64,000 nt of DNA from Siphonodentalium dalli (Eukaryota; Mollusca; Scaphopoda; Gadilida; Siphonodentaliidae). The notes beneath the pieces were generated by a model that was not told the origin of the DNA, did not search any database, and saw only the letters and a program-made list of their open reading frames with translations. This document shows, piece after piece, positions 18,578 through 62,880 of the stretch. Position 1 is the stretch's first letter. The number at the start of each line of letters is the position of its first letter. The DNA is taken from assembly GCA_032622095.1 (NCBI GenBank), contig CP136061.1, forward strand, positions 59,289,301 through 59,353,300, in the 5' to 3' direction. The position numbers and the translations under genes were made by a program.

Positions 18578-18839
18578 TTAACGCTTTCATGATTGGAGCT
18601 TCCTGAAATTTTGCGAAAATCTTGTGCCAATCATTATCTTATATATTCGAGTCTCCCATGGGGAACATTGCATATATAAGAGAATGCATTGGCCTAACCA
18701 TATTTACATTCACCTTGTAAGCCAGTGCATTCTCTCATTTATGGGAGGCTACCTATGGCAGATTCGCATATATAAGAGAATGCATTGGCACAGGATCCTT
18801 AATGCCGCACCAGTGCAGCTCCCATCATGAAAGGGTTAA
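18578..18839. mobile_element. TTAA-flanked MITE, CATGA type, two internal hairpins
   Basis: TTAA at both ends; termini cgctttcatgattggagc and gctcccatcatgaaaggg. Inside are two hairpins built on the palindrome tgcattctcttatata...tatataagagaatgca. A TTAA target and CCCTTT ends suggest piggyBac-type mobilisation (inference). It lies between PTP exons 2 and 3. Confidence 0.75.
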
Positions 18840-18913
18840 TAGTTAAGGTTTGTCGTACTGATGACAGTCTATTGTTGCATGTAGGGTCTAAAATTTACAT
18901 GAATATTTTCCAG

Positions 18914-18987
18914 ATGATGCAACAAGAGTACATCTCCAGAAAGGTGCAGATAACCAATCAGATTACATCAATGCTAATTTTGTGAAG
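18914..18987 (+). CDS. PTPN12-like: PTP exon 3: DYINANF segment
   Basis: Acceptor ttttccag, donor gtagtt. Completes the Tyr codon and codes DATRVHLQKGADNQSDYINA followed by NFVK. DYINANF is PTP motif M2, part of the domain core. The exon ends in phase 0 and joins exon 4 directly. Confidence 0.93.
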
Positions 18988-19640
18988 GTAGTTAAATGCA
19001 TAGTATCTTTCAATAGTATTTTACAGGGTTGTCACTCACTCATTACTATTAACTGATACGAAAGCACTATGACCGCTTGATCAGAAATTTATCTGACAAA
19101 TTAATTTTCAAATCCCCTTAGGAAAAAAGATGTTCATGGTTGATACATGAATACCAGTAATTTAAGTTGATACACCCTAAGACTTAAAATCTAAAAATTA
19201 AAAGTGATGTTTTCGGTAACATAGGGGGAAAAAAGTATAGGTGAACTGGTATAATTAAATTTTCTATTATTTTTATTTATAAAAAAAATCCATAAGACCA
19301 TATATGGAATAAAAATATTCACTCTGAGTATATGCCCCTGGTGGCACAAATGATATAACAGGACACAATGAGCACAGTACTGTAGGCATTTGATGGGATA
19401 ATGAAGCCTTGTAGTAATTTTAATAAAAACATCGTCAATAATACAGATCAGCTACAAGTCAGCAGTTTTACTATGATCAGAGATTTTTAAACGCCATTTT
19501 TTTGTTTCGGTTTTTACATTTATTTAGACAATGGGTGGGTGGGTTACCAGAAATATCACTATTTTTATTAGGCCTAACCAATGTGAATCATTTAATACTT
19601 AATTTAGTTTCTAAAGAATCATCATTATATTCTTGAAAAG

Positions 19641-20724
19641 TAGTGATGTTCCGATAATCGGAATCGGCCATCGGCCGATAATAGCCCATCGGAAATTAAT
19701 CGTACCTCGCAGTTGAACATCGGCTTTTACCGATTGTCAAAATAAATAAAAACGTTCTAGTATCTAAGCGCAATGTGCACGCTTTAATAAACATACGCAA
19801 TACAACTGTAGTATTGAATGTAAAACGCAGTTGTAACAGCCTAAAAAGAAGCCATTGGCATCATCAAAGCAGTCTGATATTATGATATATTATAAGAATG
19901 GCAATACACATGCCCGACATCCCGTGTAATATGAAGTTATTGGTTCAATCGCGTTGACACGAAATAGATTCAAAGAAAGCTTTAATTAAAAAGCTGACCT
20001 GATTACAGTGAGGCTTCCTCTAGAGCACGTGTCATGTGACGTCACATGCTATGTCAATAACTTGAAGCACACACTGAATGAATTAATACAGTTGTAATCA
20101 GAACTGTCTTCAATAACGATCAACGTTAGTAGGGGCATAATTAGCTTTTTCGTCTGTACAACGTATGCTATGAAATACGCTTAGCTCCACGTTGAACTTG
20201 CGAAACAAAAATTGAGCAGGCGGAACTATAAAAGCTTCCGAGTTGTTAAAAGATAAAAGGTGTGACCAATGGAAACTTGGGAAATCTCAGACAAATATGA
20301 CAGCAATTATTATCCATCAATCAAAATTTAGTTAATAATCATCGCCATTCCATACATTGTTGCAACTTTGAAGTATTCAATCAAGACTTTTACTCCGCAT
20401 GCAAGTGTTCCACACATGGTCATAACGTTACTCTGTGTCGGCACCTTTGATCTCTTTGTCAAAACAACTACCGGTATATACATCAAAGGAAGCACACAAC
20501 CGACGTCGGCAGAAATACTGTCACGACAGTGTGTATATATTTATTTGATGTATTTGGCTTTGAAACTATGCGGGATATGGAGTGCATTGGGTGTATATAA
20601 GTCCATTATAGGAACACACGCACAATATATATAAACATCGGAATCGGAATCGGAAATCGGCCGATTGTGCCTCCAGTTATCGGAAATCGGTCCGATAAGC
20701 TTTTTCATTATCGGAACATCACTA
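19641..20724. mobile_element. hAT-like element with ATCGG repeats (1,084 bp)
   Basis: Termini TAGTGATGTTCCGATAA on the left and the exact reverse on the right. Flanked by a perfect 8-bp duplication, ttgaaaag (19633-19640 and 20725-20732). Both ends carry runs of atcgg/ccgat. No transposase frame, so non-autonomous. Intron 3. Confidence 0.88.
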
Positions 20725-20807
20725 TTGAAAAGTATTTTTTATTCTCAAAAATTGGTAGTATAATTGTAGAATCTTGTTTAGTTCTTGTTTTCCTGCTGGT
20801 TACCTTG

Positions 20808-21180
20808 GGCCAAAGAAACAAATAATTGTGGTTTGGGTTTCCCTACTGAACCTATTTAATTTTAAACCCCCTACCCTAAAGTTTTTTTCATGGTTTTCAA
20901 GAAAATCTATTGAATTTTTTTGTCAAAAAATTTCATAAAACACAAAAAACACATATCAGCAACTCAGAATAGGTTGATTTTTTTAGTAACAGTATGGTGC
21001 AATATTAAAATTTATACCAAAATAATCAAAAGTAGTTTTATGTCAATCTTGGAGAGTGAAATATGCACATGAAAAGTAATAAGAATATGTCAAAATAAAA
21101 AAATAAAAAGTTCAGGCCTACCTACCGACCCTATTTTGTTCAGCTTGTAACCCAAACCAAACATGTAATTTTCTTTGGCC
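20808..21180. mobile_element. Harbinger-like MITE next to PTP exon 4 (373 bp)
   Basis: Inverted ends ggccaaagaaacaaa and the reverse of ttttctttggcc, with internal tttaaaccccctacccta and ctacctaccgaccctatttt strings shared with the copies at 16218 and 51773. Flanks no longer match. It ends 37 bases before the exon 4 acceptor. Confidence 0.6.
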
Positions 21181-21217
21181 TCAGAAAGACCAATTAACTA
21201 TTGTCCATAATTGACAG

Positions 21218-21352
21218 GATGTGAAGGGGGAGAATGGATACATCGCAGCACAGGGACCATTACCACATACTGTCAATGATTTCTGGAAGATGTTGTGGGA
21301 ATATAACATAGAAATCGTGGTGATGCTTTGCAAGGAAATGGAACTCAGGAAG
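21218..21352 (+). CDS. PTPN12-like: PTP exon 4: core beta-sheet, AAQGPL and DFWxMxWE
   Basis: Acceptor ttgacag, donor gtacga. Codes 45 residues including [20 protein letters not shown] and [22 protein letters not shown](A/T)QGP and TVxDFWxMxWE are hallmark classical PTP motifs, and the MELRK tail corresponds to the FEMGRKKC region specific to the PEST group. A Harbinger-like MITE ends 37 bases upstream of the acceptor. Confidence 0.94.
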
Positions 21353-21789
21353 GTACGAATTCCTTTTCATGCATTACTTGCTTAACTCATAATACCATGA
21401 CCAAACCTTAACCCTTGGATACATGGAAGAATGGATACTCGCTGATATAGCTCTATATTTCCATTCATCTGTAGAGATTTTCAGCAATGAATACCTCCTA
21501 AATCCTTTGATAACTAGAAGACTGGATACTCCTTGATTCAGTCCTCAAAATTATTATAAATGTCCTAGTATGGCAAATTAATGCTGTAGCATGTCAATTT
21601 CTAATGATGTTACTCACGGTATTGCATATTGCTGTGGACAATATCGAGGACTGTTGATTTAACACTTTAACAGTATTCCCATTCATTTTAATGATGATAA
21701 GTTCTTATTGCCTGAACATTTACTGAGTATATGGGAATCCACATGATGTTTCTTTGCATGTAGTTTGATAATATTATCAGAGCATCCCT

Positions 21790-22085
21790 ATGATCAAGCC
21801 CAGAGGGTGAAGTTAGTGACGCTGTCCTGCATAGAGGGCTAGCATCACTAAATTTACCCTCTGGGGACCTCATTCTGCTTATGCCTCATCTTCTCTGATA
21901 TGTTTCTTTATCATCAAATTTCTATAGAAACTTAGATTCTATTTCTTTTTTAGTTTAGTTTCTCTATATAATTTCCCCAAATTAGCAGATGACACATTGC
22001 ATAATCAAGGTTCCCAATGGGTGTACTACGTGTACATCACAATATTCACCATTTGAGAACTTCAATCTGATCCTACAGATGGCCC
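21790..22085. mobile_element. Degenerate CAAGCCT-family MITE
   Basis: Contains the family core gaggtccccagagggtgaa in diverged form, the reverse ttcaccctctggggacctc-like arm, and the internal words aatttccccaaattagcaga and ttcaatctgatcct found in longer copies. Ends are not resolved. Confidence 0.5.
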
Positions 22086-22231
22086 AGTTGTTAGCATATC
22101 TCAACGCACTGGCATGAGTTCACTGCCTGTCTGGATTATTGAGTTTCCCCACAATAGTGGCTTGGTCGGCTGTAGAGTCACATGCTGTTCAATTGTCATG
22201 CCAAGTTGTGTCCCTTGAGCACGGTCACTTA

Positions 22232-22415
22232 CAGTAATGCTCTAATTAATCGACCTCTTAACCACAGCAGAATTATGGGTAACTTTTCAGGATTTAGTCG
22301 GAAGTATGGCTTGTTGTCATTCATGAATGGCAACAAGCCATATTTCCGACTAAATCCTGAAAAGTTACCCATAATTCTGCTGTGGGTAAGAGGTCGATTA
22401 ATTAGAGCATTACTG
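22232..22415. mobile_element. Palindromic (fold-back) mariner-like MITE, copy 1
   Basis: Begins CAGTAATGCTCTAATTAA and ends with its reverse, flanked by TA on both sides (22230, 22416). The two halves are nearly perfect reverse complements over about 85 bases each, so the unit folds into one long hairpin. CAGT ends and TA targets point to Tc1/mariner-type mobilisation (inference). Intron 4. Confidence 0.8.
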
Positions 22416-22524
22416 TATACTGTGGTGGCTTCGTCTTACCTAGACGTGAAATAAGTACGTAGCATGTTGGGCAGAATATTCCTTATCGCGCTTAAACGAA
22501 ATTAGATATTCCTTATTGATCTTA

Positions 22525-22804
22525 TGCACCTGCGATTATGACGTCTGTCCGACTTTTTTGTGTGAGTTATTCTCCTTTTTTTACTTAGAACATTTTTGCA
22601 ACATGCATAATTTTGTCCGAGCTTTTATTCCTACATTTTTCGGTCAATAGGTTTAGGATTAGGGTTGGGGGTTAGGGTTGTGCACCTGCAATGGGAATCT
22701 GTTATTTTATTATTTTAACTTAATGTTTACTGACATGTGAAACATCTTAGTGTTTCAAAAACAGGGGGGTATCCTTAGTCCCTTTGGGACAGTCAAACCT
22801 CTAG
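22525..22804. mobile_element. 3' fragment of a CCCCCCGCAAC Helitron-like repeat
   Basis: Matches the 3' part of the copies at 26011 and 37508 (gcgattatgacgtctgtccg ... gggggtatcc). It ends with hairpin gtccc-ttt-gggac and then CTAG about 10 bases on, the Helitron-type 3' signature. The 5' part is missing. Confidence 0.65.
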
Positions 22805-23188
22805 TTATTATTATAATTTTAATACATATGTCCGACAACATTTTTTACTTACCTGGCAGACTGGAATTCATTAATGACAAATAGAATCATTCATAATATT
22901 CATTTTCAAGCAGATACCTGTACACACATGAGATATTCGTATATCTCAAAGAAGAAATAAAAAATTTGAGCCAAGCAAAAACCATGATCTGTACCTCAAC
23001 TGTCATTTGTTTATGATCCTCGACTTGATTATGCGATATGAAGCACCGTTGGTATGATGAGTAGCATGCGGATAATCATGTAAGATCATTTGGGATGTCA
23101 GAATAATAAAAAAGGTGATTATTCCATGGTAAATACCCATCTTTGTCACTGTAAAATCAGTCTATGTCAAAAGTTCCAATCCTATATA

Positions 23189-23389
23189 CAGTAATGCTCT
23201 AAATAATCCACTCCTCAACGACAGCAGAATTATGGGTAATTTTTCAGGATTTAGTTGGAAATATGGCTTGTTGCCATTCATCGGAAAGTTCTCACTGAGA
23301 ATGGCAACAAGCCATATTTTTTACTAAATCGTGAAAATTTACCCTTAATTCTGCTGTGGTTAAGGAGTCGATTATTTAGGGCATTACTG
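23189..23389. mobile_element. Palindromic mariner-like MITE, copy 2
   Basis: Same family as at 22232: CAGTAATGCTCTAAATAA start, reverse at the end, TA flanks. Arms diverge slightly more. Ends 34 bases before PTP exon 5. Confidence 0.8.
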
Positions 23390-23423
23390 TACATGTATAC
23401 ATCCTATATACATTTTATTTCAG

Positions 23424-23492
23424 GTTAAATGCCACAAGTATTGGGCAAAAGACGGTGAGGTGCTTGAATTTGGTGCTATCAAAGTGTCCTTA
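23424..23492 (+). CDS. PTPN12-like: PTP exon 5: KCHKYW segment
   Basis: Acceptor tatttcag, donor gtaagt. Codes VKCHKYWAKDGEVLEFGAIK then VSL, matching the K-C-x-x-Y-W-P region of classical PTPs. The usual Pro after KYW is Ala here. Phase 0 at both ends. A palindromic mariner-like element ends 34 bases upstream of the acceptor. Confidence 0.92.
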
Positions 23493-23847
23493 GTAAGTTT
23501 ATGCTAATATGCTCTAGTGGCTAGATCTTTGTATTTGATAGTTAAAACAACAGACGAGTTAAGGAATGTTCAGACGAATCCACTGCCTTGTGCATCAATT
23601 TTAATTACTAGTACATGTACAAGCAATAATAGTATTATAATACTAAGGTAATACTACCGTAACGACACATCTGTTATGTTGTATCCCATAATGCGAGAGG
23701 GGCAAGTTTGTAATAGGAGAGGGGCAAGTTTGTAAGTTTTGTAACTTGTGCCCCGATCCCTATGTATATTTTCTAGATACATTAAAATATGTTTAAATTA
23801 ATCCCATAATGCACACAACAGAGATTAATTTTCAATGCAACGCAAAC

Positions 23848-25187
23848 TAGGCCTGTAACGATTCATCGCGATTTCGATTCATCGCGATTCGTCATTCATG
23901 ATTCTATACGCGATTCATTTGACTGTAATTTCGATACACTACGATACAGTTCTGCTTCCGTATTATGCAGTTGCCATACGAAGTCAATCGGGTCCCCTCG
24001 TTCGTTTTCATAAGCTGTGAATGCTTACGAAGTGTTATCAGAAGTAAATCTGTAAATTTCATTTGTTTCCGTGAGCTCGTACTTTGACCTTTGACACAAA
24101 CGTTGGCGGAAGTGAAATGACTGACCTCCGTAACCTAGCCTCAGACTGTAAGCCATGTTCTGATTGGTTTAATTTGATGAACTGCTGTGATTTCAACCAA
24201 TCAAATACTAGTATATTGGATATATCGTCTGCGAAAAACAACAACACGTGGGCCGTGGAAAGAGTGTACGTAACATCTAGTCGTTTTCATAAATTTGTGA
24301 TCAAGTTTGGGTGAAAAAACTCTGAATCTTCGGTATTAATTTTGCTTTGCAAGTTTGGCTATTAGTAGTAACTCATACAATTGAAATTTAACAAGTAGAC
24401 TATGATCATGAGGTATAGTATATTTCTATTTTGAAGTTGAGTTTAAATTCCACAAAATGGTTCGAATTACTGCAATTATAAATCTTAAACTTCAAAATCA
24501 AAGGTATGGTGCATGGCACTGCATGCAACATCTAACTAAAATTTGTGAACATTATATATAAATCTGCTGACCGTATGTCCTTCATTACAATGATTTACGA
24601 CCCATAGCCAATATAGTGAACATACTATAAGCTACCCATGCAGTAGTACCAGGGAAATTGAGGGAATGCAGGGATTAATTACATACCTGTCACACCTAGT
24701 CACCTAGCCCCAAGTCAATATACCATATGGCCTATGGATCCTTCATGCATTTAGACTCAATGATTCATTCCCCATATTGACATACTAGTTTGTAAATAGA
24801 GTTGAAAATTATCACACTAGGCTGCTCAGCTCAGCCAGCTGTTGTGATTTATGTGATATATAAACAGATGAGTGAGAAACTTTTCAACTCTTTTACCGAC
24901 TTCAGTATCAATATGTCATGTTGTACTGGTATTTCCGGATGTGTACGAGCATACTACAATACTACATACCACAATACACATATAACTAAACAATTATGAA
25001 AGTCCACAGTAATATTAGAAAAACTATCATTAAAACTCAACCTGAGAGTTGTGCAAATTTGGAGTGTTGAACTTGAATAGATATTTACTCGTGGGATCAA
25101 ATTTTGCGTATCGCTATACGTATCGTATCGTTGGCCCCGTATCGCGATACGTATCGTACCGTGACCAAGCGTATCGTTACAGGCCTA
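23848..25187. mobile_element. hAT-like element with CGATAC/ATCGCG ends (1,340 bp)
   Basis: Termini TAGGCCTGTAACGAT and its exact reverse; an exact 8-bp target duplication acgcaaac lies at 23840-23847 and 25188-25195. Subterminal runs of atcgcgat and cgtatcg repeats are seen at both ends. Non-autonomous; intron 5. Confidence 0.9.
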
Positions 25188-27338: not shown

Positions 27339-27589
27339 TTAACCCTTTCTGACTGGTGCAGCATTAAAGGTCCTGTGCCTGTGCATTCTCTTATATTTAC
27401 GAGTCTCTCATAAGGAGCCTCGTATATATAATAAAATGCACAGGCTTATAATGTCAAATTAAATATTGTTAGGCCAATGTATTCTCTTATATATGCGAGG
27501 CTCCCTATGGGAGACTCACATATATAAGAGAATGCATTGGAACAGTGTTTTCCAATAAATTCAAGAAGCTCCAGTCATGGAAGGGGTAG
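27339..27589. mobile_element. TTAA-flanked MITE, CATGA type
   Basis: Reverse orientation relative to the copy at 18578; TTAA on the left, degraded on the right (ccagtcatggaaggggta). It contains the two gcattctcttatata hairpins. Intron 5. Confidence 0.7.
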
Positions 27590-30494: not shown

Positions 30495-30747
30495 CAAGCC
30501 TTGAAATAGGGTGTCTGTCATTTGCAGAATGAGGTCCCCAGAGGTGAATTTAGTGATGCTACCCCGCATAGCGGGCTAGCATCACCAAATTCACCCTCTG
30601 GGGACCTCATTCTGCTTACACCTCAGCAGAATGAGGTTCCCAGAGGGTGAATTTGGTGATGCTAGCCCACTATGCGGGGTAGCATCACTTAATTCACCCT
30701 ATGGGGACCTCATTCTGCAAATGACAGACACCCTATTTCAAGGCTTG
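30495..30747. mobile_element. CAAGCCTTG-family MITE with 8-bp duplication
   Basis: Termini CAAGCCTTGAAATAGGGTGT and the exact reverse. Two internal hairpins of cagaatgaggtccccagagg with its reverse. Exact target duplication gcatttga at 30487-30494 and 30748-30755, consistent with hAT-type insertion. Intron 6. Confidence 0.85.
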
Positions 30748-31666: not shown

Positions 31667-32089
31667 TTAACCCTTTACCCAACAAACCGGCCAAAAACCC
31701 CAAATAAAGCTTCAACAGCCTAAAATATCTTCGGTCTGTCTCAATAACACCATACAAATATGGATATCATTGGAACCGGTTCATTGACCACATTGTGATG
31801 GTTACAGTTATGCCCTGTGCCAATGCATTCTCTTATATATGCGAGTCGACCATAGGTCGCCTCGCATATATAAGAGAATGCATTGGCCTTACATTCTTTA
31901 ACAATTTTATAATTTTTTCTTACATTTTTTAACAATTTTCATAATATTTTTCTACATTCTTTGACAATTTTATCATTTTTAATATGTTAAGCCAATGCAT
32001 TCTCTTATATATGCGAGGCGACCTATGGTCGACTCGCATATATAAGAGAATGCATTGGCACATGGCCGTTCTGTTGGGTAAAGCATTAA
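31667..32089. mobile_element. TTAA-flanked MITE, TACCCAACA type
   Basis: TTAA followed by ccctttacccaaca; the other end tgttgggtaaagcattaa is slightly diverged. Two strong hairpins ccaatgcattctcttatata...tatataagagaatgcattgg separated by a gttaaagaatgt-type spacer. Intron 6. Confidence 0.8.
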
Positions 32090-34431: not shown

Positions 34432-34831
34432 TTAACCCTTTACCCAACAGAAGGGCCCTGTGCCAATGCATTCTCTTATATATGCGAGTCGACCATAGGT
34501 CGCCTCGCATATATAAGAGAATGCATTGGCTTAACACATTAAAAATTATAAAATTGTTAAAGAATGTAAGAAAAAATGGTAAAAAGTGTTAAAAAAAGAT
34601 TTTTTTTAGGCCAATGCATTCTCTTATATATGCGAGGCGACCTATGGTCGACTCGCATATATAAGAGAATGCATTGGCACAGGGCATAACTGTAACCATC
34701 ACAATGTGGTCAAGGAGCCGGTTCCAATGATATCCATATTTGTATGGTTCTATTGAGACAGACCGAAGATATTTTAGGCTGTTGAAGCTTTATTTGGCCG
34801 GTTTTGGCCGGTTTGTTGGGTAAAGGGTTAA
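34432..34831. mobile_element. TTAA-flanked MITE, TACCCAACA type (best-preserved copy)
   Basis: TTAA plus ccctttacccaaca at the left, tgttgggtaaaggg plus TTAA at the right. Two near-perfect hairpins separated by an AT spacer, then a unique right segment with the word accggttccaatgatatcca in reverse. Intron 8. About 400 bp, no coding. Confidence 0.85.
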
Positions 34832-38294: not shown

Positions 38295-38305
38295 CGAATT
38301 ATTGG

Positions 38306-38517
38306 CAAGCCTTGAAATAGGGTGTCTGTCATTTGCAGAATGAGGTCCCCAGAGGGTGAATTTAGTGATGCTACCCCTCATAGCGGGCTAGCATCACCAA
38401 ATTCACGCTCTGGGGACCTCATTCTGCTTACACCTCCCGCTATGTGGGGTAGCATCACTAAATTCACCCTCTGGGGACCTCATTCTGCAAATGACAGACA
38501 CCCTATTTCAAGGCTTG
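38306..38517. mobile_element. CAAGCCTTG-family MITE with 8-bp duplication
   Basis: Perfect termini caagccttgaaatagggtgt and reverse; target duplication attattgg exact at 38298-38305 and 38518-38525. It sits directly after the Helitron-like repeat. The centre of the second hairpin is shortened. Confidence 0.85.
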
Positions 38518-38827: not shown

Positions 38828-39227
38828 TTAATTTGTTACCCAACAGAAGGGCCCTGTGCCAATGCATTCTCTTATATATGCGAGTCGACCATAGGTCGCC
38901 TCGCATATATAAGAGAATGCATTGGCTTAACACATTAAAAATTATAAAATTGTTAAAGAATGTAAGAAAAAATGGTAAAAAGTGTTAAATTTTTTTTTTT
39001 TTTAGGCCAATGCATTCTCTTATATATGCGAGGCGACCTATGGTCGACTCGCATATATAAGAGAATGCATTGGCACAGGGCATAACTGTAACTATCACAA
39101 TGTGGTCAAGGAGCCGGTTCCAATGATATCCATATTTGTATGGTTCTATTGAGACAGACCGAAGATATTTTAGGCTGTTGAAGCTTTATTTGGCCGGTTT
39201 TGGCCGGTTTGTTGGGTAAAGGGTTAA
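38828..39227. mobile_element. TTAA-flanked MITE, TACCCAACA type, before exon 11
   Basis: Almost identical in order and sequence to the copy at 34432, with a damaged left end (ttaatttgttacccaaca). The right end tgttgggtaaagggttaa is intact and lies 84 bases before exon 11. Confidence 0.82.
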
Positions 39228-39311
39228 TTTGTGGGCCATATGTTGAACTTATTATCTGAGTACTTGCGAAGGAACTACTTGTCAGAGTATTTATTTTTTC
39301 TATATTTTCAG

Positions 39312-40169
39312 TTGTGGCTAATGCAGTTTCTGACAAGAAATCCGAACCCATTGCAACCAAACCCGAGAAAGGTCCAAAACCTATGAGATCTAATGCAGTT
39401 CGTAAACCTGCAACAGAATCTACCAGCAGCATGAATGATAATAAACCGACACCTGCAGCTCGTATCTCAAGCATCGAGGAAAAGAAGAAACCTGAGCTTC
39501 CCGTTAAAAGCACAGCAGTTTATGGGAACTTAGAATTGATTGCAGCAAAGTCTCAGGAAAGTAAATCTCCCCTTCTGCCTCATACTCCAAGCATTGAAGA
39601 AAAGAAGAAGTTTGTATCTGAACCTTCAAATAATGCTAACTCACAGAATAAAAATACTCACGGTGCAGATGTCAAGGTCATAAGACTTCAGGATGGTGAC
39701 GCTAAAATCACCAGAGTTGTTAAACGGATGGCAAGTTATGAGAATATAACTCCAAGATCTGAGGAAAAGGAGGTTTCCATGTTAAAAAGTGACTTTAAGA
39801 GGAAGAGTTCTGATAACACTCAAGTTAATGCTAGGCCAAATGTCCAGCCTCCCAAGCGAGATAATTCCAAGAAGAAATTTGTGACTACGATTTCAATTGG
39901 GAATGAAGGCGATGCATCAGATAATTCTAAATCTGACGTGACTCCTGCAATTAAGGCAAATTTAACTCCAAATATAGCGGGAAATAAATCACAAACTCTT
40001 CCAAGCACTGATGTATACATTGATGTTCATAAGCCCAGTAAAGAGGACACTAAAGCCCGGTCTCTTCCAGCTAATCCATCTGATTTATATGCTCATGTTG
40101 ATAAATCACCTAAAACACCAGTTAACGATGAGCAGGAATATGAGATCATTGATACCACAAAATTGCCAG
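39312..40169 (+). CDS. PTPN12-like: PTP exon 11: long Lys/Ser/Pro-rich regulatory tail
   Basis: Acceptor attttcag, donor gtgagt. Codes about 285 residues, open throughout, rich in Lys, Ser, Pro, Asn and Asp, with no folded domain visible, as in the disordered tails of PTPN12 and PTPN22. Seen: two copies of SIEEKKK (about residues 375 and 415), basic clusters, and tyrosines in short acidic or hydrophobic settings (VYGNL, SYENI, DVYIDV, DLYAHV, EYEIID). VYGNL and SYENI fit pYxNx. A TTAA-flanked MITE ends 84 bases upstream of the acceptor. Sequence similarity to vertebrate tails is not recognisable by eye, so the assignment rests on phase and position. Confidence 0.87.
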
Positions 40170-40832
40170 GTGAGTAGGTTGTAATTGTGTAAAGAATAAT
40201 CTTGATTTTAAAGAATAATCTTGATTTTAGTCCCGTGCATTTATGACAAAAAATGCCAAACCTTAAACTATTTATAATTGCAACACTATATTTTTTTAAC
40301 AGGAATAAGTCCAATTGCCCTTTATAATCAGCATATGATTAAAAAAATTAATAATGGGACTTTGGTGAAAATTTGGTATTCAAAATACTTAATTTATGGT
40401 TTTCCAAGGATTTGTTTTAATAAACTTTATTTGATCCTTTCATTTGTGTATACCAATTTTGTAGATTTTACAATGCTGACTACAGAACAGAAAACACTTG
40501 TTGTTTTCTTCTGTTTATGTACAAAAACCATCAAAAGATGTTTGGAAAAGAGTGACAGACCTTCACATTTGGCTATAATAAGTCCATACTATGGAACATA
40601 CATATTATAAGAAAAATATTTTTTCTTAATCCTAGATGCATAAGGCAATAATTTGTTTTTGGTGCAAAATCTATTGAAGGAGTTTTCGAATGTTTTTCCA
40701 ATATAAATTTTTTCACTAGTTTTTAAAATACCAGACCATAAGATATGGATTTTTAGCTATTTCTGAGAAATTGAAGCTCTGTTTGAAATTAGATAAACTC
40801 CCAATTTTGGAGGCACATAACTCAAAGAATAC

Positions 40833-41097
40833 TTAAGCCTTTCATGACTGAAGCTCCCTGAAGTTTTGCGAAATTCCTGTGCCAACACATTCTCTTATAT
40901 ATGCGAGTTGACCATAGGGGCGACTCGCATATATATAAGAGAATGCATTGGCCAAACAATATTTCCTTGATTTTGTAAGCCAGTGCATTCTCTTATATAT
41001 GCGAGGCTCCCTTTGGGAGACTGGCATATATAAGGGACTGCACTGGCACAGGGTCTTCAATGCTGCACCAGCACAGCTCCCATCATGAAAGGGTTAA
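40833..41097. mobile_element. TTAA-flanked MITE, CATGA type
   Basis: TTAA plus gcctttcatgactgaagct on the left, catcatgaaagggttaa on the right; two gcattctcttatatatgcga hairpins. Intron 11. Confidence 0.8.
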
Positions 41098-44493: not shown

Positions 44494-45010
44494 TTGAATG
44501 GGAGTGAATTAAATACCAAGCAAGAGAGCATCTCCCAGGTGGCACCACTTGCTCCAAAAGTGGTGTTTTATACACTAAATTCAAAAGTCAAATTGATTTC
44601 ATAACAATTTGTATGGAACCCTGAATACAACTTTAACGCTTCCATGACTGGAGGTTCCTGAAATTTTGCGATCTCGATATGGAATGAGAATTTGTTCACG
44701 CTCACTGAGTCTGTGCCTACAAAATCTGATATATACACACGCACCAAAGAATTTAATTTTTTTTATGGAAAAATTAACAAAATTATTATTTCTGTCCCTC
44801 TAAGACATTGAAACTATATTTAAATAGATGAAATAAATGGATAGGGAATTAACTACCAAACAAGAGAGCATATCCCAGGTGGCACTCGCTCCAAAAGTGC
44901 TGTTTTATACACTCAAATCTCAATCAAAAGTCAAATTGATTTCATAACAATTGGTATGGAACCCTGAATACATCTTTAACCCTTCCATGACTGGAGCTTT
45001 GCGAAAACAC
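44494..45010. repeat. Tandem duplication, about 345 bp offset
   Basis: ccaagcaagagagcatctcc...gtggtgttttatacact at 44516-44580 recurs at 44855-44925, and both copies are followed by gaaccctgaataca and the left end of a CATGA-type MITE. The duplication therefore includes part of a MITE insertion. Intron 12. Confidence 0.7.
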
Positions 45011-45094
45011 TGTGCCAATGCATTCTCATATATGCGAGTCTCCCATAGGATCTTTAATGCTGCACCAGGGCAGCTCCCGTTACGAAAGGTTTAA
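44976..45094. mobile_element. Deleted CATGA-type MITE next to exon 13 (119 bp)
   Basis: TTAA ccttccatgactggagc ... cagctcccgttacgaaaggtttaa. Only the left half of the first hairpin remains. It ends 32 bases before the exon 13 acceptor. Confidence 0.7.
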
Positions 45095-45126
45095 ACATAA
45101 GTTGGTAGCTTTTTGTTTCTCTGCAG

Positions 45127-46975: not shown

Positions 46976-47079
46976 GTAAGTGTTATAATTCAACTTGATG
47001 ACATGATGACAAACTGGTTTCATGCTCGACTTAACAAATGTATAATAGTAGGTGCTATATAGTTTGTTTGTCCCTTTGA

Positions 47080-47245
47080 GTGCCAGGTCCGATTTTTGTA
47101 TCGACCCATATACCCTGTGCCAATGCATTCTCTTATATTTGCGAGTCGACCATAGGTCGCCTCGTTTTTTTATTTTTTTAGGGCCGATTTTACAGACCGT
47201 AAATTAGGGCCGATGAGATTGGCCCCTGGCACTGAAAGGGTTAAC
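47080..47245. mobile_element. TTAA-type MITE, GTGCCAGG ends, carrying the same palindrome half
   Basis: Ends ccctttgagtgccaggtcc and ggcccctggcactgaaaggg before TTAA. Inside is tgccaatgcattctcttata with gcgagtcgaccataggtcgc, the left half of the hairpin found in the other two TTAA families. The left TTAA is lost. Confidence 0.6.
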
Positions 47246-49386: not shown

Positions 49387-49641
49387 CAAGCCTTGAAATA
49401 GGGTGTCTGTCATTTGCAGAATGAGGTCCCCAGAGGGTGAATTTAGTGATGCTACCCCGCATAGCGGGCTAGCATAACCAAATTCACCCTCTGGGAACCT
49501 CATTCTGCTGAGGTATAAGCAGAATTAGGTCCCCAGAGGGTGAATTTGGTGATGCTAGCCCACTATGCGGGGTAGCATCACTAAATTCACCCTCTGGGGA
49601 CCTCATTCTGCAAATGACAGACACCCTATTTCAAGGTTAAA
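49387..49641. mobile_element. CAAGCCTTG-family MITE before exon 14b
   Basis: Same structure as the copy at 30495, with two hairpins. Target duplication agcctaaa at 49379-49386 and 49642-49649. The right end is shortened (tcaaggttaaa). It ends 48 bases before the exon 14b acceptor. Confidence 0.8.
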
Positions 49642-50786: not shown

Positions 50787-50871
50787 CATCATGTTGATTG
50801 GTTACTTCAATGTTGTAATAAGTTTACATTGGAATGGTATATTATTCATCTGGGGGGATTTTCAGGAAATA

Positions 50872-51084
50872 CAGTAATGCCTTAAATAATCGACTTCTTA
50901 ACCACAGCAGAATTATGGGTAATTTTTCAGGATTTAGTCGGAAATATGGCTTGTTGCCATTCATCGGAAAGCTCTCACTGAGAGCTTTCCAATGAATGGC
51001 AACAAGCCATATTTCCGACTAAATCCTGAAAAGTTACCCATAATTCTGCTGTGGTTAAGGAGTCAATTATTTACGGCATTACTG
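50872..51084. mobile_element. Palindromic mariner-like MITE, copy 3
   Basis: CAGTAATGCCTTAAATAATC start, reverse at end, TA flanks. Arms of about 105 bases meet at ctctcactgagag, so nearly the whole unit is one perfect hairpin. Confidence 0.85.
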
Positions 51085-51772
51085 TAGAAGCAGACAGCAG
51101 ATAATACAAGTGCATACATATTCCTATTCATGATGGGGAATTGTTCATATAATAAGTTCAATACTATAAATAATAATTATTACTTTCGTACATTAATTGA
51201 CTACCGTAGTGGAAACAGTCATTTTCTGCAAACAAGTATTTAAAATGGGACCAGTTTGATTCCCATAAATTTAGCTAAGCAAAGTGTGCCATAAACACCG
51301 GATTTCATAATTGTCTTGAATTTGATGCTCAGTTTCATGATAACATTTTGGCATGTTCTAAACGTTTTCAGTCCACACCATTAATTATTATTTGTTTGCA
51401 TGAGCAACAAGGAAGGTATCACAGAATGCAGCCTGCTAAAGGCTGAAATCTTTTATAAAATTTAGTTTTAAATTATAATATTGTTGAATGCAGTTCTTAG
51501 TGTTTTAGTTTGTATGTTTAGCATGAATCTTTGTTCAAATTAATTCATTTTAGCACATTTTCAGTTGAGAATGCTGTAAATGTTTCAATATAAGTATAGT
51601 TCCCATTTAAGAAATGTTCATGACTTTTAAATCCATGGTGTCAGATTCTCAATGCAATGCTTGTTTATTTGTGTTCTTTGACATGTTCACCAGTTTGTTT
51701 CTGTATACAGTCTGTTTCTCCATACGTGACATCATCATTCATTGGGAAATTAGTCATGACATTTTTGCTTTA

Positions 51773-54360: not shown

Positions 54361-54451
54361 TATGACTTCAAAACAGACTGAGACATTTTTCTTTCAGGTG
54401 TGTTTAAATTTTTGCCAAATGCCAGTTTTCCTTGATTGCATCTGGGCTACA

Positions 54452-54760: not shown

Positions 54761-54796
54761 CTTATCAGCCATATTTATCTTATTTTACCACTTCTA

Positions 54797-55377: not shown

Positions 55378-55765
55378 TTAACCCTTTACCCAACAACCGG
55401 CCAAAACCGGCCAAATAAAGCTTCAAAAGCCTAAAATATCTTCGGTCTGTCTCAATAAAACCATTCAAATATGGATATCATTGGAACTGGCTCCTTGACC
55501 ACATTGTGATAGTTACAGTTATGCCCTGTGCCAATGCATTCTCTTATATATGCGAGTCGACCATAGGTCGCCTCGCATATATAAGAGAATGCATTGGCCT
55601 AAAAAAAATCTTTTTTTACCATTTTTTCTTACATTCTTTAACAATTTTATAATTTTAATGTGTTAAGCCAATGCATTCTCTTATATATGCGAGGCGACCT
55701 ATGGTCGACTCGCATATATAAGAGAATGCATTGGCACAGGGCCCTTCTGTTGGGTAAAGGGTTAA
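55378..55765. mobile_element. TTAA-flanked MITE, TACCCAACA type, reverse orientation
   Basis: TTAA at both ends with intact ccctttacccaacaa and tgttgggtaaaggg; both hairpins near perfect. Intron before exon 15. Confidence 0.85.
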
Positions 55766-56317
55766 ACCCGATTTCAAGACTACAGATACAAATAGCTTTT
55801 TTTATGAATAAAACGCAGACAAACTGAAGATTGAGTATAATATTTATCTATAAAGTCATAATAAAGTCTTTTATCTCTGATGTAGAGAGCAAAATCTCTT
55901 GAATTTGAAATCACTTTGCCCTAACAAGAGTTCTCCCTCTTGCTACGCTTCAAACTTTTCTGCGATATCACCTTAAGTTTCTGTTCCACAAATAGCCCAT
56001 TAAACTGTCCCGAAAGGTTGTATGTTTTATAGCAGAAAAATAAAAATAAAATCAATGTTAATTGATGGAAACAATTCCGGATAGGTGTCTTTGATTTATA
56101 TTTTTTATTATATACCCCTAAAACTATATAAACTATATAAAGGAAGAGATACACTATCTACAAATAATAATTTGGCAGCAACCACTGTTATTATTTTATT
56201 TGGACACCTGCTTCTTCGCTAACGCCATGAGGATGCACTTTTGCAAGCAGTACTCAGCATTTCAATACTTTTCAAGATGATCTTCAACAATGCACCAGAC
56301 CTTTTTATTAAAGGATC

Positions 56318-56770
56318 ACTTAATTTTCGAATCCCCAGATCACATTATATAAAATATATGCCATATTATATACTAATTGAAAGAGGAGCTCCAAAACATT
56401 GTATTATCAACTTATCCAGTGACAGTGTAATAAACTATGAACATGTTGCTTTTGTTGAGGTACCAACATGTTTTCTGTGCTTAAGGTTTATCTAGACTGT
56501 ACTGCAAAGTCTAGTATTTGAAAGTGGAAGGGGAATAACTCTATATCGTAGTTTGAATTATGTTGCATTCTGGGAGCGAAATGGGGGAAATGTTTCTATG
56601 ATTTCAGCTATTTTCTATTACTCTATGGGCACCTTCAGAGACACAGACATTCCAAATGGTGATGATTTATTGAATTTTAATCATATCATAGTTTGTTATT
56701 AAAACAAGGTAATAAAACCATATATCAAGGAACTACATATATAACAAAAATATTCAGCGACTTGAAAATC
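56318..56770. repeat. Dispersed repeat, duplicate of 33050-33500
   Basis: Collinear with the repeat in intron 7 (gatcacattatataaaatat, gctccaaaacattgtattat, tatgttgcattctgggagcg). The short open frame across it has no domain. Confidence 0.5.
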
Positions 56771-57468
56771 AAATTGTCCTTTGACAGCCACACCAACCAC
56801 TTTGGTTACATCATCATTATTTCTCATCATATCTGATTTTATTTCTGCAATTCTAAGCATGATTTACTGGAGATTTACCAAATTTATCAGCACGATAGTA
56901 ACAATCGTTCATCTTTGAATTATTTCTTTACAACACATACATAGTCCCTGGATATTCACCCTTGCCTAACATTATTGCCAAATATTTACAAAGCCTGTTT
57001 GTGTTACACTAAATCCAGTTTCGAGATTGGTCAACTGCCAATTGTTTCATGTGTTTCATATCCAATAAAACACACCATGACATAAATAGACCCCACACCA
57101 TGTTGACCTACATGACTAAAAGCAGGAGATAAAATAGCTGGATGTGTTTTCGTGCAGCATGGTGTAATATTCAAACTGCAGACAGATTTAAGAAAACCAA
57201 TTCAACTATGTTTATAATAATTAATGAAGAAAAGCTATAAAATATAAACAATGAATGTAGTTTGAGTGTTTTTATTGAAGGGGTTGTTGCTCTGTCCTGA
57301 AAATTTCCTGAGGGATAACTACTCATCAATGAGTTTCAAGTGTAGAAAGGGTTAATAAATAACCATTTCAAAGAGTCTAATCAAGGAATGTTTGACAGAA
57401 TGTTATACTACTTGCTATCCTTTACTGAGGTTCTCCTTTTAAAGAAATATATTTTCTCTGTTTTTCAG

Positions 57469-57499
57469 CTTAAACCAGGAAAATTAGGTGGAATACCAG
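57469..57499 (+). CDS. PTPN12-like: PTP exon 15: short tail exon
   Basis: Acceptor gtttttcag, donor gtatgg. Codes LKPGKLGGIP plus one base. At 31 bases it is accepted because its phases (0 in, 1 out) connect both 14a and 14b to exon 16. The preceding pyrimidine-rich tract is good. Confidence 0.68.
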
Positions 57500-57579
57500 G
57501 TATGGTTAATTAACAATGAAACTTTATACATGTGCCATTAATTGTATTATTCTGGTCATGATCTTTCAGTGCAAACCTT

Positions 57580-57965
57580 GACATTTACAGAATGAGGTTC
57601 CTAGAGGGTAAATTTCCTGCATGGAGGGCTATTGTCACCAAATTCACCTTCTGGGGACCTCATTCTGCTTAGGCCTCTACTGCTACGGGAGATCTGGGAT
57701 CAGATTGAAGTTCCCCAATTGAAGTTGATGATGTTCACCCTCGAGTATGCAAATTAGGGGATACAAAAACTGAACAGAAGGGGAAAAAAAGTAACTAAAA
57801 ACAATGTTAATTTGATACTCTCGATAATTCCCGGAAGATGAAGCCAAGGCAGAATGAGCTCCACAGATGGTGAATTTAGTGACACTACCCCACACAGTGG
57901 GCTAGCATCACTAAATTCACCCTCTGGGGACCCATTCTGCTCAGGCCTCATCTTCTGGGAAGTAT
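57580..57965. mobile_element. CAAGCCTTG-family MITE, long form
   Basis: Two hairpin cores (about 57590-57670 and 57850-57950) around the internal segment with gggatcagattgaagttccc and aaattaggggatacaaaaac. Outer termini decayed. Confidence 0.55.
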
Positions 57966-58224
57966 ATACAGTCTCAGATTAACATTGTTTTTAGTTACCT
58001 TTTCCCTTCTGTTCTTTTTCTATATCCCCTAATTTGCAGAAGATAAAATCTGGAATCGGGTTTAAAACCACAGATTTAGCTGTCAAATGGCGGTTTAAAT
58101 CTAGAGGTTTACGTAGACCATGTTTAAACTGGAGATTACGATCCGGCCAATAAGATCAGACACATGAGTCTACTTATATGAGGTTTTTATTACCAGATAT
58201 CGACTTACAAAAGAGGATTTATTT

Positions 58225-58455
58225 TATTATATGACACTCACATATATAAGACTATAAGGTGACTAATGGGTAAACATCACCAACTTCAACTGGGGAACTT
58301 CAGTCTGATCCTAGGTCTCCAATAGCAGTTGAGGCCTAAGCAGGATGAGGTTCCCAGAAGGTGAATTTGCTGCCACTAGCCCTCCATGTGGGATAGAGTC
58401 ACTAAATTCACCCTCTGGGGACTTCATTCTGTAAATGACAAACACACTATTTGCT
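58225..58455. mobile_element. CAAGCCTTG-family MITE, partial reverse copy
   Basis: Internal words catcaccaacttcaactggg and ctaggtctccaatagcagtt, then the right hairpin ending ggacttcattctgtaaatga. The left hairpin is missing. Confidence 0.55.
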
Positions 58456-58867
58456 GCTATGGAAGCTGACAACGAACTTATTCTTTACACACTCAGATAT
58501 GTAATCAGTTAACTTGTGGGTTTATTTGTACAGTAATGGCAGCTATTAGCAGCAATTGCAGTGTAAAGTAATTTTTAAAGGTGACAAATGCTATTTTAAA
58601 ATCTGATCTGTGGCATATATATGTGAACCTTTAGCTATATTTTTGTGGATTGTCTCAACATCAATTGGGAATCACATAAGCATTTTCAGTAAGTTGGTCT
58701 AAATGTTAATTGTAGACAATTATAGAAGGGCACAGTTCAACTCCAATGTCACGTTATTACTATGAAGGAGATATGTTTAACATATTTAGCCAGACCCATA
58801 TATATATATCAGAACTCACTATTAGTACCCCCAAGAAAATAGTGTACCTATATGATTATATATTATA

Positions 58868-59135
58868 TTAACCCTTCCATGACTGGAGCTTCCTGAAATT
58901 TTTCGAAACCCTGTGCCAGTGCATTCTCTTAAACATGTTCATGTATATGCAAATCTCCCATAAGGAGCCTCACATTTATAAGAGAATACATTGGCCTAAC
59001 AATTTTTAAATATTGACTTTGAAAGCCAGTGCATTCTCTTATATATAATAGGGATCCTGACATATATAAGAGAATGCACTGGCACATAATCTTTAGTGCT
59101 ACACCAGCGTAGCCCCCATCATGAAAGGATATAAC
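58868..59135. mobile_element. TTAA-flanked MITE, CATGA type
   Basis: TTAA plus cccttccatgactggagct; two diverged hairpins; right end catcatgaaaggatataac decayed. Intron 15. Confidence 0.72.
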
Positions 59136-59279
59136 ATAACATGATGTGACTTAATTTGGGGGAAGCCTGACATTTCGATGAGACTGTGATAGACTCAGTA
59201 AGTCAGTACGACCCTTGAGTGTCTGTTGACACAGATTGATGTTCAGCTAAATTTATTATTATTCCATTTTTCTTGCCAG

Positions 59280-59312
59280 ATGAAGGTGCAATAAACAGTA
59301 GTACAAATATGG
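59280..59312 (+). CDS. PTPN12-like: PTP exon 16: 33-base tail exon
   Basis: Acceptor cttgccag, donor gtaagt. Completes an Asp codon and codes EGAINSSTNM plus one base of Gly, phase 1 in and 1 out, so it could be skipped without a frame change. A palindromic mariner-like element begins 12 bases after the exon end, directly behind the donor. Confidence 0.7.
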
Positions 59313-59324
59313 GTAAGTAACCTA

Positions 59325-59636
59325 CAGTAATGCTCTAAATAATCGACTCCTTATCCACAGCAGAATTATGGGTAATTTTTCAGGATTTAGTCGAAAATAT
59401 GGCTTGTTGCCATTCATCGGAAAGCTCTCGCTGAGAGCTTTCCGATGAATGGCAACATGCCATATTTCCGACTAAATCCTGAAAAATCACCCATAATTCT
59501 GTTGTGGTTAAGGAGTCGATTACTTAGAAGCGAGAGCTTTCCTATGAATGGCAACAAGCCATATTTCCGACTAAATCCTGAAAAATTACCCATAATTTTG
59601 CTGTTGTTAAGGACTCTATTATTTAGAGCATTGCTG
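59325..59636. mobile_element. Palindromic mariner-like MITE with extra arm, beside exon 16
   Basis: A full palindrome (59325 to about 59525) is followed by a repeated right arm (gcgagagctttcctatgaat ... agcattgctg), flanked by TA. The left end starts 12 bases after the exon 16 boundary. The triple-arm structure suggests unequal exchange or a second insertion. Confidence 0.75.
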
Positions 59637-59639
59637 TAT

Positions 59640-60760
59640 GTTTGTCACATGCATTTACATTTTCTGTTCTGCACAGATATCTCAGCCATCGGTTATCAGA
59701 TCTGAATGAAATTTGTTATGGAAGTTTACCATCACAACTGCTTTCAAAAGATTGCCGTTTGATGTTGTTTGCATTTTATTTTTGCCTCAGTTATCTACCT
59801 TAGTTTTAATTTTTTTGCAATTTTCGTCTGCGGGCTTAACTCTAACAAATATGATCCAATTTCAATAGCTTTTAGCTCAACTTGATGATGTCAAGTTTGA
59901 GCAATGCCATGGGTTGGCATCAATCATGAGTGTTTGCTTCCGTGATCCATCAACAATTTCCCTAAAAAAACATGGCCGCCAGCAGCCATCTTGGATTTCA
60001 AATGTGAATCCATCAGCACACCCTGCAGCTCACATTTATTTGGGAATTGTTTTGAAAATTTACCAACATGTTTAGGATCACCTCTAGATGGGAGCTATCG
60101 AATTAGAATGGTTTTCGATGAAAAATATGGCTGCTGACAACCATCTTCCATTTTACTCTTTGCATGACTAAATCCTTTGGCACACCCTGCAGACCACATC
60201 ATCACCAAATTTCATATGAATCTTCAGACCAGCCACTAGATGGGAGCCATCAAATTTTTCCAAAATTCATTGTAAAAGATGGCCACTGCAGCCATCTTGG
60301 ATATTATTCTTTGCATGACTAAATCCTTTGGCATAACCTACAGGCCACATCCATCATCCGATCATCACCTAATTTCATTTGGATCTTCAGGGTGAACTCT
60401 ACATGGGAGCAGTACATTTTTATCTGAAATTTGTTGAACAAAATGATGGCCTCATTTTGGCATCATTTTGGATTTCAAATTTGAATCTATTGGCACACCC
60501 AGCAGCCCGCATTTATCGGAGAATTGTTTTGAAATTTACTGACATGTTGGGTTTTTTGTCTGTCTGAACAGATATCTCAATGAAATATGGTATGTATATG
60601 TTCACTTTTATGAGGACATTCAATGGAGTGTTCAATCGTTTTGTTCGGGTTTTTCATTCTAGAGTTATGCATCTTTGTTTGTCTGGAAATGTAGATTTTT
60701 TTCTGTCTGCCTGAGTATCTCAGCAATGGATTATCAGTATGCCCACACTAGGCGGTATGC
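59640..60760. repeat. AGCTCAACTTGA tandem-monomer repeat (copy 2) with flanking LINE-like or Helitron-like repeats
   Basis: The core at about 59873-60560 starts agctcaacttgatgatgtca and has monomers cagccatcttggatttcaaa and ctaaatcctttggcacaccc as at 42201. Flanks at 59640-59760 and 60560-60760 (cagatatctcagccatcggt, atgaaatatggtatg) match 31150-31400, so those form a separate repeat family. Confidence 0.55.
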
Positions 60761-61739
60761 ATCATGTGAGAATGCACCGGAAACAACCCAGCTCTTGTTC
60801 CAATTTGTTTGCCTGGGTTGCAGTCCTTCGTTCATCAATTTGTTTTATCCATCCAGCTCTGCTACTAATGTTTTTAAACCATTATTTGAATAACTGATCG
60901 TACAGAGGAGAGAATTGCAGAGGTCCCTTTCATCTGTTGGCATCAGAAATGCCTATGTTTGAATTTACACCATGTGGGTATGCCAGCAGAAGAGGTGAAA
61001 CCTCTTGTTTTTTAGTGAATATGAGAATTATCTCAGATACCTTAAAATTTCTCATATTGAGTATTTAGGATGTACATAAGACACATAAATGCAGCTCAAG
61101 TTCAAGTTATCTGCAAGTTACTCGCCGATGGCCAGTGATTTGACGCACATGGTCGATGAGTTTATCAGCCATTGAAATCACTGTTAGATTAGTCGTAAGT
61201 GTGTGGATTTCCTCCACCACTACAACTGACAATGTCGTGATATGGCTTTAGTTGCTGAAAGCGACATGAAACCCCAATCAATCAATCAAAGTGGGTTCAT
61301 GTAAGCTAACATACTTGTCTATTAAAATGTGAAATAAATATCTTCAACATGTACATCTGAAAAAAGTCCAATAAGATACAAAAGTTTAATCAAAACTTGT
61401 CAGTAAACATTGGGAAAGGTCAAAGGATTTAAAATAATCAGAAAATCATATTTCTACCTGTTTTGACTATAATATTTGAAGTTTTGAACTCAATGTGTAT
61501 TTGTTGACAAATCACAATAACAGTTTTGTTTACATAACAACGGTTTCAAGTCAATGGAATTTCATTATTGGAGAGCTATTTATAATTGAGATAAGAACAA
61601 ATTTAAAGTTTATCTGGTTTTCCATGTTCTTCATGATGGTGATTTATTTACAAACTGTTATTATATTTTTTGCACATTTACTAACTGCTTGTGACTTGTG
61701 TCCATTTAATTAATAGAATGTTTAATTCTGATCTTCCAG

Positions 61740-61837
61740 GATTTGGTAATCGAGTTGGTAAACCTAAGGGACCACGGAGCCCTCCGGCTAACTGGGAGAC
61801 TTCCAAGAAGCCAGGGGGGTTCACCACATATCTATGA
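61740..61837 (+). CDS. PTPN12-like: PTP exon 17: C-terminal homology motif and stop
   Basis: Acceptor atcttccag; stop TGA at 61835-61837. Codes GFGNRVGKPKGPRSPPANWE and then TSKKPGGFTTYL. This corresponds closely to the extreme C-terminal homology box of PTPN12 (GFGNRCGKPKGPRDPP), which binds the PSTPIP F-BAR adaptors in vertebrates. It is the strongest evidence that the short tail exons belong to the PEST subgroup rather than to any generic PTP. Confidence 0.94.
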
Positions 61838-62300
61838 TAGGCAAGGCTCTTATGTGAACTATCAGGGCCTTGTGACCACATTCTAATGAGAAGAGATACA
61901 CCAACCAACCGCGCCAACTGCAGATGGCTTTAATAAACACACACTTGTTAAGACTACTTAGTTTTACACAGTTAAATAAAAGTACTCTTGACACATTCCT
62001 CATCACAAAAATATTCAGCGAGAAATTAATGTCGTTTTTATCAACATTCAGAAATTAGGCATGTTTCAGTCATAATGTTAACATTGCTCCAGCATGTTGT
62101 GTTTGACTTCCAGTTCATTTATTACCAATTGGAATTGAGATTTTCCTACCATGCTCTACAGGCAGCTACAGGTGCAATTTTTATGTGACCGCTGGTTAAA
62201 AGTTTTAACCTGTACAAACGTAAATATTTCAAATTTACTGCAAAAATAATAAACAAAACACATTTATTTCACTGCTGTAACGACAAATCTGTTCAGAAAT
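61838..62300 (+). promoter_or_regulatory. 3' UTR with candidate polyadenylation signals
   Basis: AT-rich sequence following the stop codon. AATAAA hexamers occur at 61932-61937 and 61975-61980, with further AATAA variants near 62245. Either of the first two could end the transcript; the sequence alone does not decide. No repeat is seen until the palindromic element at 62311. Confidence 0.45.
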
Positions 62301-62310
62301 TTTCTGCATA

Positions 62311-62522
62311 CAGCAACGCCCTAAGTAATCGACCTCTTAACCACAGCAGAATTATGGGTAACTTTTCAGGATTTAGTTGGAAATATGGCTTGTTGCCATT
62401 CATCGGAAAGCTCTCGGGGAGAGCTTTCCGATGAATGGCAACAAGCCATATTTCCGACTAAATCCTGAAAATTACCCATAATTCTGCTGTGGTTAAGAGG
62501 TCGATTACTTTGGGCGTTACTG
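62311..62522. mobile_element. Palindromic mariner-like MITE, 3' flank copy
   Basis: CAGCAACGCCCTAAGTAATC start and gcgttactg end with TA flanks. Arms of about 105 bases, near perfect; centre gctctcggggagagc. Confidence 0.82.
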
Positions 62523-62646
62523 TATGTATGTTTTGAGATTATGTGTACATTTATTATGTCATTGACAAACAGTTGACATCATTTTCATTGTGTAGTGAAG
62601 AAGGTAACAGGGTTGTTGTAATAATAGACTCTCCATCTGACATTGT

Positions 62647-62880
62647 TTAAAACTTCCATGACTGGAGCTTCCTTATATTTTGCGAAAACCATGTGCCAAT
62701 GCATTGTCTTATATATGCGAGTCTCCCATAGGGAGCCTCACATATATAAGAGAATACATTGGCCTCACAATATTTAACTTGAACTTATAAGACAGTGCAT
62801 TCTCTTATATATGCGAGGCTCACTATTGGAGGCTCGCATATATAAGAGAATGCACTGTGGCAGGATCTTTAATGATCATC
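62647..62880. mobile_element. TTAA-type MITE, CATGA family, right-truncated
   Basis: TTAA plus aacttccatgactggagct; both hairpins present; the right terminus after ggatctttaatg is missing. Confidence 0.7.

Follow-up and report, generated by a model that had tools for sequence, protein, structure and literature searches.

A stretch of 64,000 nucleotides from the scaphopod mollusc Siphonodentalium dalli (contig CP136061.1, positions 59,289,301 to 59,353,300, read on the forward strand; the whole stretch is called the window below) contains three families of short elements, A, B and C, which are framed by TTAA, differ in their ends and carry the same palindrome inside. The question raised by this locus is why elements with unlike ends should share an interior. 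We found that the shared part is a pair of mirrored hairpins, and that this pair has the look of a sharply bounded module, common to frames with unlike ends.

A mirrored hairpin pair in three kinds of element

A previous sequence-only reading of this DNA had proposed that one palindrome is shared by elements with three types of ends, and this was confirmed. The 20-base arm CCAATGCATTCTCTTATATA has 36 matches in the 64 kb (both strands, up to 3 mismatches), compared with a mean of 0.02 and a largest count of 1 in 100 shuffles. A hairpin profile trained on 16 hairpins and then run across the window gave 21 loci, the 16 training hairpins and 5 more. Eight of them lie in four B elements and ten in five A elements; the other three are a partial hairpin in the A element at 44976, a half hairpin in the C element at 47068 and a weak relict at 13773-13838 (E 0.0017, one strand). 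The 21 loci were assigned to 12 TTAA elements, seven with A ends (one of them the relict), four with B ends and one with C ends. A count of palindromes outside any TTAA element, which the same reading had suggested making, came to 0 of the 21 loci found in this window, as we place them.

A family B element opens with TTAA and CCCTTTACCCAACA, followed by a short flank and CCTGTGCC. Hairpins 1 and 2 come next, separated by an A+T-rich spacer, and then GGCACAGG; a further stretch of about 150 bp leads to the inverted end and the closing TTAA. The B and C elements are the following:

34432..34831, + strand: family B element with two hairpins, bounded on each side by TTAA and CCCTTTACCCAACA
34457..34683, + strand: module of this element, 227 bp, CCTGTGCC through GGCACAGG
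34461..34531, + strand: its hairpin 1, with a 27-bp perfect outer stem, a T.C mismatch, a 5-bp tip CGACC/GGTCG and the loop ATA
34609..34679, + strand: its hairpin 2, the exact reverse complement of hairpin 1
38828..39227, + strand: family B element that has lost its left CCCTT; hairpins at 38857-38927 and 39005-39075
55378..55765, - strand: family B element, inverted; hairpins 55529-55599 and 55666-55736
31667..32089, - strand: inverted family B element with a 31-bp tandem repeat in its spacer; hairpins at 31818-31888 and 31990-32060
47068..47244, + strand: family C element with the ends CCCTTTGAGTGCCAGG / CCCTTTCAGTGCCAGG; its half hairpin, of the B type, runs from 47118

The single hairpin that had been taken as the unit is too small. 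The shared unit is CCTGTGCC-hairpin-spacer-hairpin-GGCACAGG, with two hairpins of which the second is mirrored, being the exact reverse complement of the first in all four B elements. This orientation is visible because the T.C mismatch and the loop break the symmetry of hairpin 1, and with hairpin 2 as its reverse complement the module becomes one long inverted repeat with palindromic arms. The core is thus a mirrored pair of palindromes of ~69 bp, containing four copies of one 27-bp arm, placed head-to-head twice. Local alignment scores of the two hairpins in reverse complement versus direct orientation were 69 versus 60 in the B element at 34432. Two A elements were compared in the same way: the mirror orientation was favoured in the one at 62646 (49 versus 42) and the scores were nearly equal in the one at 40833 (38 versus 36).

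The A elements are these:

18578..18839, + strand: family A element; hairpins 18625-18694 and 18720-18790
27339..27588, - strand: inverted family A element whose TTAA at the high end is gone; hairpins at 27376-27446 and 27472-27542
40833..41097, + strand: family A element; hairpins at 40880-40953, with the B-like tip TTGACC, and at 40978-41048
44976..45096, + strand: family A element with an internal deletion; single partial hairpin 45013-45057
58868..59136, + strand: family A element, right end decayed; hairpins 58914-58996 and 59024-59084
62646..62890 (last base approximate), + strand: family A element, right end missing; hairpins 62694-62764 and 62790-62860
13741..13889 (start approximate), + strand: decayed A relict, left half missing; hairpin 13773-13838

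The A elements listed previously are confirmed, with the corrections that the element at 62647 has no recognisable right end, that the one at 44976 keeps only part of one hairpin and that the relict hairpin at 13773-13838 had been passed over. The relict was put in family A because of its decayed right end, its right flank resembling the decayed A right end. The B elements also stand as listed, except that the one at 38828 has lost its left CCCTT and has TTAATTTGT on both sides (38828-38840 and 39224-39235), as if the loss had happened at insertion or repair. As for the C element, listed at 47080, its half palindrome is there and the TTAA on the left is not (TTGT stands in its place). The terminal bases are damaged in two B copies (31667 and 38828), which is taken as damage after insertion.

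Some observations were made beside these elements. The spacer of the B copy at 31667 contains three copies of the 31-bp tandem repeat (31888-31980), and spacer length varies among the B copies. An open frame of 305 aa without Pfam match (39260-40177), which may be a host exon, lies about 30 bp beyond the B element at 38828. DNA flanking the A element at 44976 occurs twice, at 44567-44667 and at 44910-44999, about 345 bp apart; both copies include an A left end, which in the first breaks off a few bases short of the module edge. This looks like a tandem duplication adjoining the element.

The modules of the A majority, B and C share the start point CCTGTGCC. Those of the A majority and B can be aligned over their whole length, with differences at the stem tip, in a few bases and in the spacer. 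At the tip two positions have changed on both sides, from CTCCC/GGGAG to CGACC/GGTCG, the arm sequence being kept across families. The C core matches that of B at 50 of 51 aligned bases. The ends behave differently from the modules. In 12 comparisons of ends between families, with TTAACCCTT left out, between 81 and 496 of 500 shuffles scored at least as well, so that no homology of ends was seen beyond CCCTTT; for left and right ends of the same family, the shuffles that did as well numbered 7 of 500 in A, 49 in B and 7 in C. The B left end has only 15 bases, which limits these comparisons. From their sequences, the ends look replaced rather than slowly diverged.

TTAA was found on both sides of six of the 12 elements (18578, 40833, 44976, 31667, 34432 and 55378) and on one side of the other six (27339, 58868, 62646, 13741, 38828 and 47068). 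The better-kept ends have the terminal motif CC[C/T]T given in PMC2872659, as CCCTTT or close variants, several others being damaged, and the inverted repeats fall within about 12-19 bp: 14 bp and perfect in B, 1 mismatch in 12 in C, about 19 bp with mismatches in A. We infer that the elements are probably non-autonomous TTAA miniature inverted-repeat transposable elements (MITEs) of the piggyBac type.

Conservation of the core and its possible causes

Conservation was measured as variable columns or deviating cells in the alignments; the P values are from Fisher tests, and segments and tests were chosen after seeing the alignments. Among the four B copies the hairpins have 0 of 138 variable columns and the ends 12 of 167 (P 7e-4), leaving out gapped columns and the terminal TTAACCCTTT of the left end, which holds a further 4 variable columns. 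Merging neighbouring end columns (12 to 10) gives P 0.002. The B spacer varies at 19 of 68 ungapped columns. These copies were read from the assembly, and smoothing of the arms to a consensus is a possible assembly artefact. The six A copies (relict left out) have 62 deviating cells of 725 in the hairpins, compared with 56/407 in the inner flanks and spacer (P 0.008), 21/214 in the 20-bp terminal repeats (P 0.58) and 77/621 in all other segments together (P 0.02); columns with fewer than 4 letters were left out of the cells, and pairs with less than 60% overlap out of the distances. The hairpins are therefore kept about as well as the terminal repeats in the old family A and better than the ends in the young family B. 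The proposal that the interior is better conserved than the ends holds between families, with unlike ends around matching A and B modules, and within B; within A it holds against inner flanks and spacer and fails against the terminal repeats. Ends that were simply diversified, with no excess conservation of the interior, had been named as the outcome that would overturn the idea, and this was not found in our small sample.

The best explanation of the whole, which we hold tentatively and at slightly less than an even chance, is that these are piggyBac-type MITEs whose ends have been exchanged around an inherited palindrome pair that aids mobilisation in cis. The pair would have passed down as a unit through exchanges of the outer ends among TTAA elements, by recombination or template switching, and it would persist through its help with mobilisation in cis. 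Each palindrome would most likely offer the DNA-binding domain of the transposase a subterminal site, like the palindromes of piggyBac and piggyBat, and CCCTTT would be the part common to related transposases. The presence of all 21 loci in TTAA elements, the unlike ends, the common CCTGTGCC edge, the low variation in B and the covariation described below all point in this direction.

The same end replacement could have acted around a core that does nothing, a single MITE with a fold-back core having given rise to all three families. This is unlikely in our view, although several observations agree with it. The A element at 40833 has A ends and an A spacer and its first hairpin carries the B-like tip, so that the B core, and the C core, could descend from a copy of the A lineage. 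The C core is very close to that of B, and the A hairpins do decay, no better kept than the terminal repeats. However, passive DNA should vary like its surroundings, and the B hairpins do not.

Somewhat less probable still is that the core is a portable transposition cassette. Its four arm sites would have been picked up by exchange among TTAA elements with different tips and kept by selection, through the binding of several piggyBac-type transposases or of a host factor, and the core rather than the tip would define who is mobilised.

The palindromes might also be kept by mechanical upkeep, each correcting itself by template switching or conversion between its arms with no function needed. 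Changes on both sides of a pair speak for it. In 10 distinct hairpins 90.6% of the cells pair and 6 of 32 pairs have changed on both sides, with a covariation score of 0.133; shuffles give 0.065, and 0 of 500 attain the observed value. This set includes 11 of the 18 complete hairpins (10 distinct), both hairpins of the A element at 58868 and five of the eight B hairpins being left out, and the right arm of hairpin 1 of the A element at 40833 is out of register in it through a 2-base insert. Within single A elements (10 hairpins, leaving out the partial one at 44976 and the relict) 4 deviations are identical in both arms, against 0.68 expected under random placement (P 0.003). Yet 37 others affect one arm, re-pairing of the arms gives P 0.057 for the same four, one of the four adjoins a 12-base insert, and old differences account for three of the six pairs changed on both sides (hairpin 1 against hairpin 2 of A in one pair, the A tip against the B tip in two). 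The arms are changing in step beyond random placement, yet they mostly decay singly.

A hAT-like MITE in the window (copies at 30495-30747, 38306-38517 and 49387-about 49640, plus others; ends CAAGCCTTGAAATAGGGTGTCTGTCATTT) provided a control. Two of its copies have 8-bp target repeats, GCATTTGA and ATTATTGG, around the ends. Its interior, too, consists of two palindromes in mirror orientation, each of about 92 bp, so that an unrelated superfamily repeats the design of the TTAA core. The score for reverse complement versus direct orientation is 84 versus 71 in the copy at 49387, and the copy at 38306 has a shortened second palindrome. Five palindromes from 3 of its 11 copies were used, without the shortened one. 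They vary at 10 of 450 cells, compared with 0 of 552 in B (P 3e-4), or at 8 of 450 (P 0.002) without the difference between the two hairpins of the family, which accounts for 2 of the 10 cells. Palindromes in the window are thus not immune to change, with the reservation that the ages of the two families were not matched. Both this and the one-arm decay make upkeep by mechanics alone quite improbable.

It is very improbable that the hairpins are transcribed and processed into small RNAs acting on the elements or on the host. The folds are very stable, with -55.5 and -55.7 kcal/mol for two B hairpins, and 8 of 8 folded hairpins beat every shuffle, down to the weakest, hairpin 1 of the A element at 58868 (-25.2); any near-perfect palindrome would fold in this way. 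Changes on one side that keep the pair are few (5 cells, all G-U, compared with 11 cells changed on both sides), and a search of Rfam gave no family at gathering score. Least probable of all is a hairpin pair that moves by itself and was inserted into three TTAA families, since the sharp edges CCTGTGCC and GGCACAGG amid unlike surroundings are accompanied by none of the 21 loci lying outside TTAA elements and, by eye, by no target-site repeat at the module edges. Of the idea that the palindrome is itself a module, the sharp edges, the sharing across unlike ends and the lower variation in B remain, and the independent movement is not supported.

Inheritance of a mobilisation-aiding pair with exchange of the ends has itself several points to answer. 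The palindrome is far longer than the 19-bp site of piggyBac, and piggyBat has inhibitory subterminal sequences, so that a site of this kind need not raise activity (both from the covered part of PMC11707139). On one side of B the hairpin lies ~150 bp from the end, and the A hairpins are kept no better than the A terminal repeats. There are only four B copies, and the segments compared for conservation were picked after seeing the data. Kinship inflates the covariation, with half of the both-side pairs being old differences, and the shared A deviations are weak when judged against re-paired arms. The mirrored palindromes of the hAT-like family mean that the shape is not special to TTAA elements. 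No transposase was found with Pfam among all 18 open reading frames of at least 110 aa in the window, shorter pieces being unscanned. A scan for paired ends found no TTAA element without the core, but it recovered only 3 of the 12 known elements (34432, 47068 and 55378); having missed nine, it is a poor control and says little. With these points counted, the putative binding site is still the best of the several readings that remain. If the core rather than the terminal repeat is what is kept, classing by tips splits related TTAA MITEs, and retention of the core would explain how elements without genes change their helper transposase.

Other repeats and searches in other collections

Another family in the window is one long palindrome and starts near TACAGTAATGC (22224-22420, 23181-23394, 50864-51089, 59317-59641 and 62303-62527), the copy at 59317 having an additional half unit. 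The window is eukaryotic in content. It also has reading frames for LINE (long interspersed nuclear element) reverse transcriptase and endonuclease, and satellite arrays that we presume to be like those of bivalve molluscs. In the collection viral_contigs the 20-base arm, the 20-mer GCATTCTCTTATATATGCGA, the B end and the A end gave 0 matches each, and a 14-mer gave 97 stretches, taken as chance and not used. A 24-mer gave 0 matches in genome_contigs, and one B element gave no match in plasmids. A 19-mer had 2 matches in bacterial metagenome-assembled genomes, about the chance level in 257 billion bases by our own estimate.

Comparison with known TTAA systems

Kolobok elements share the TTAA target site, and KolobokP is rich in bivalves (PMC9587614, in the part covered). 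As described there, they have long terminal direct repeats, unlike the elements studied here, and ends of the type 5'-RR...YY-3'. Membership in this group was rejected because the ends here are 5'-CC...GG-3'.

The likeness to piggyBac and piggyBat lies in the palindromes. According to the covered part of PMC11707139, paired C-terminal domains of the transposase bind 19-bp palindromes in piggyBac and, likewise, an imperfect palindrome in piggyBat. Those subterminal sites, inside the terminal repeats, are 19 bp or shorter and are unequally placed at the two ends; the palindromes described here, as putative binding sites, are ~69 bp long and mirrored.

The closest parallel comes from the CMITEs of Acropora corals (Wang et al. 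2010, PMC2872659; the statements that follow refer to the text covered). These are piggyBac-type elements with TTAA sites and CCCTTT or CCCC starts, which form six families by terminal repeat. All share one interior, and between families this interior is better conserved than the terminal repeats; one mosaic copy was reported. The TTAA, the CCCTTT, the unlike terminal repeats and the interior conserved between families are all found again here. To call a conserved interior amid unlike ends odd for MITEs, as the sequence-only reading did, was therefore too strong. The CMITE interior is about 75 bp long, with no palindrome described for it in that text, and the core here is a mirrored pair of 69-bp palindromes. 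We did not find a homologous interior when a 60-base CMITE consensus was compared with the hairpin (368 of 500 shuffles as good). The same consensus matches the whole module weakly (6 of 300 shuffles); this match lies in the A+T-rich sequence that follows hairpin 1 and is taken as composition. The CMITE authors suggested cross-mobilisation by piggyBac-like elements, of which several may need no more than CC[C/T]T and the interior to transpose an element, and by analogy the shared core in S. dalli may help its elements to move. The CMITEs are a direct precedent, the same kind of thing with another core, and the mirrored palindrome is what is new. As a second case with a plainly symmetrical core, these elements turn the question of interior conservation into a test of binding and mobilisation.

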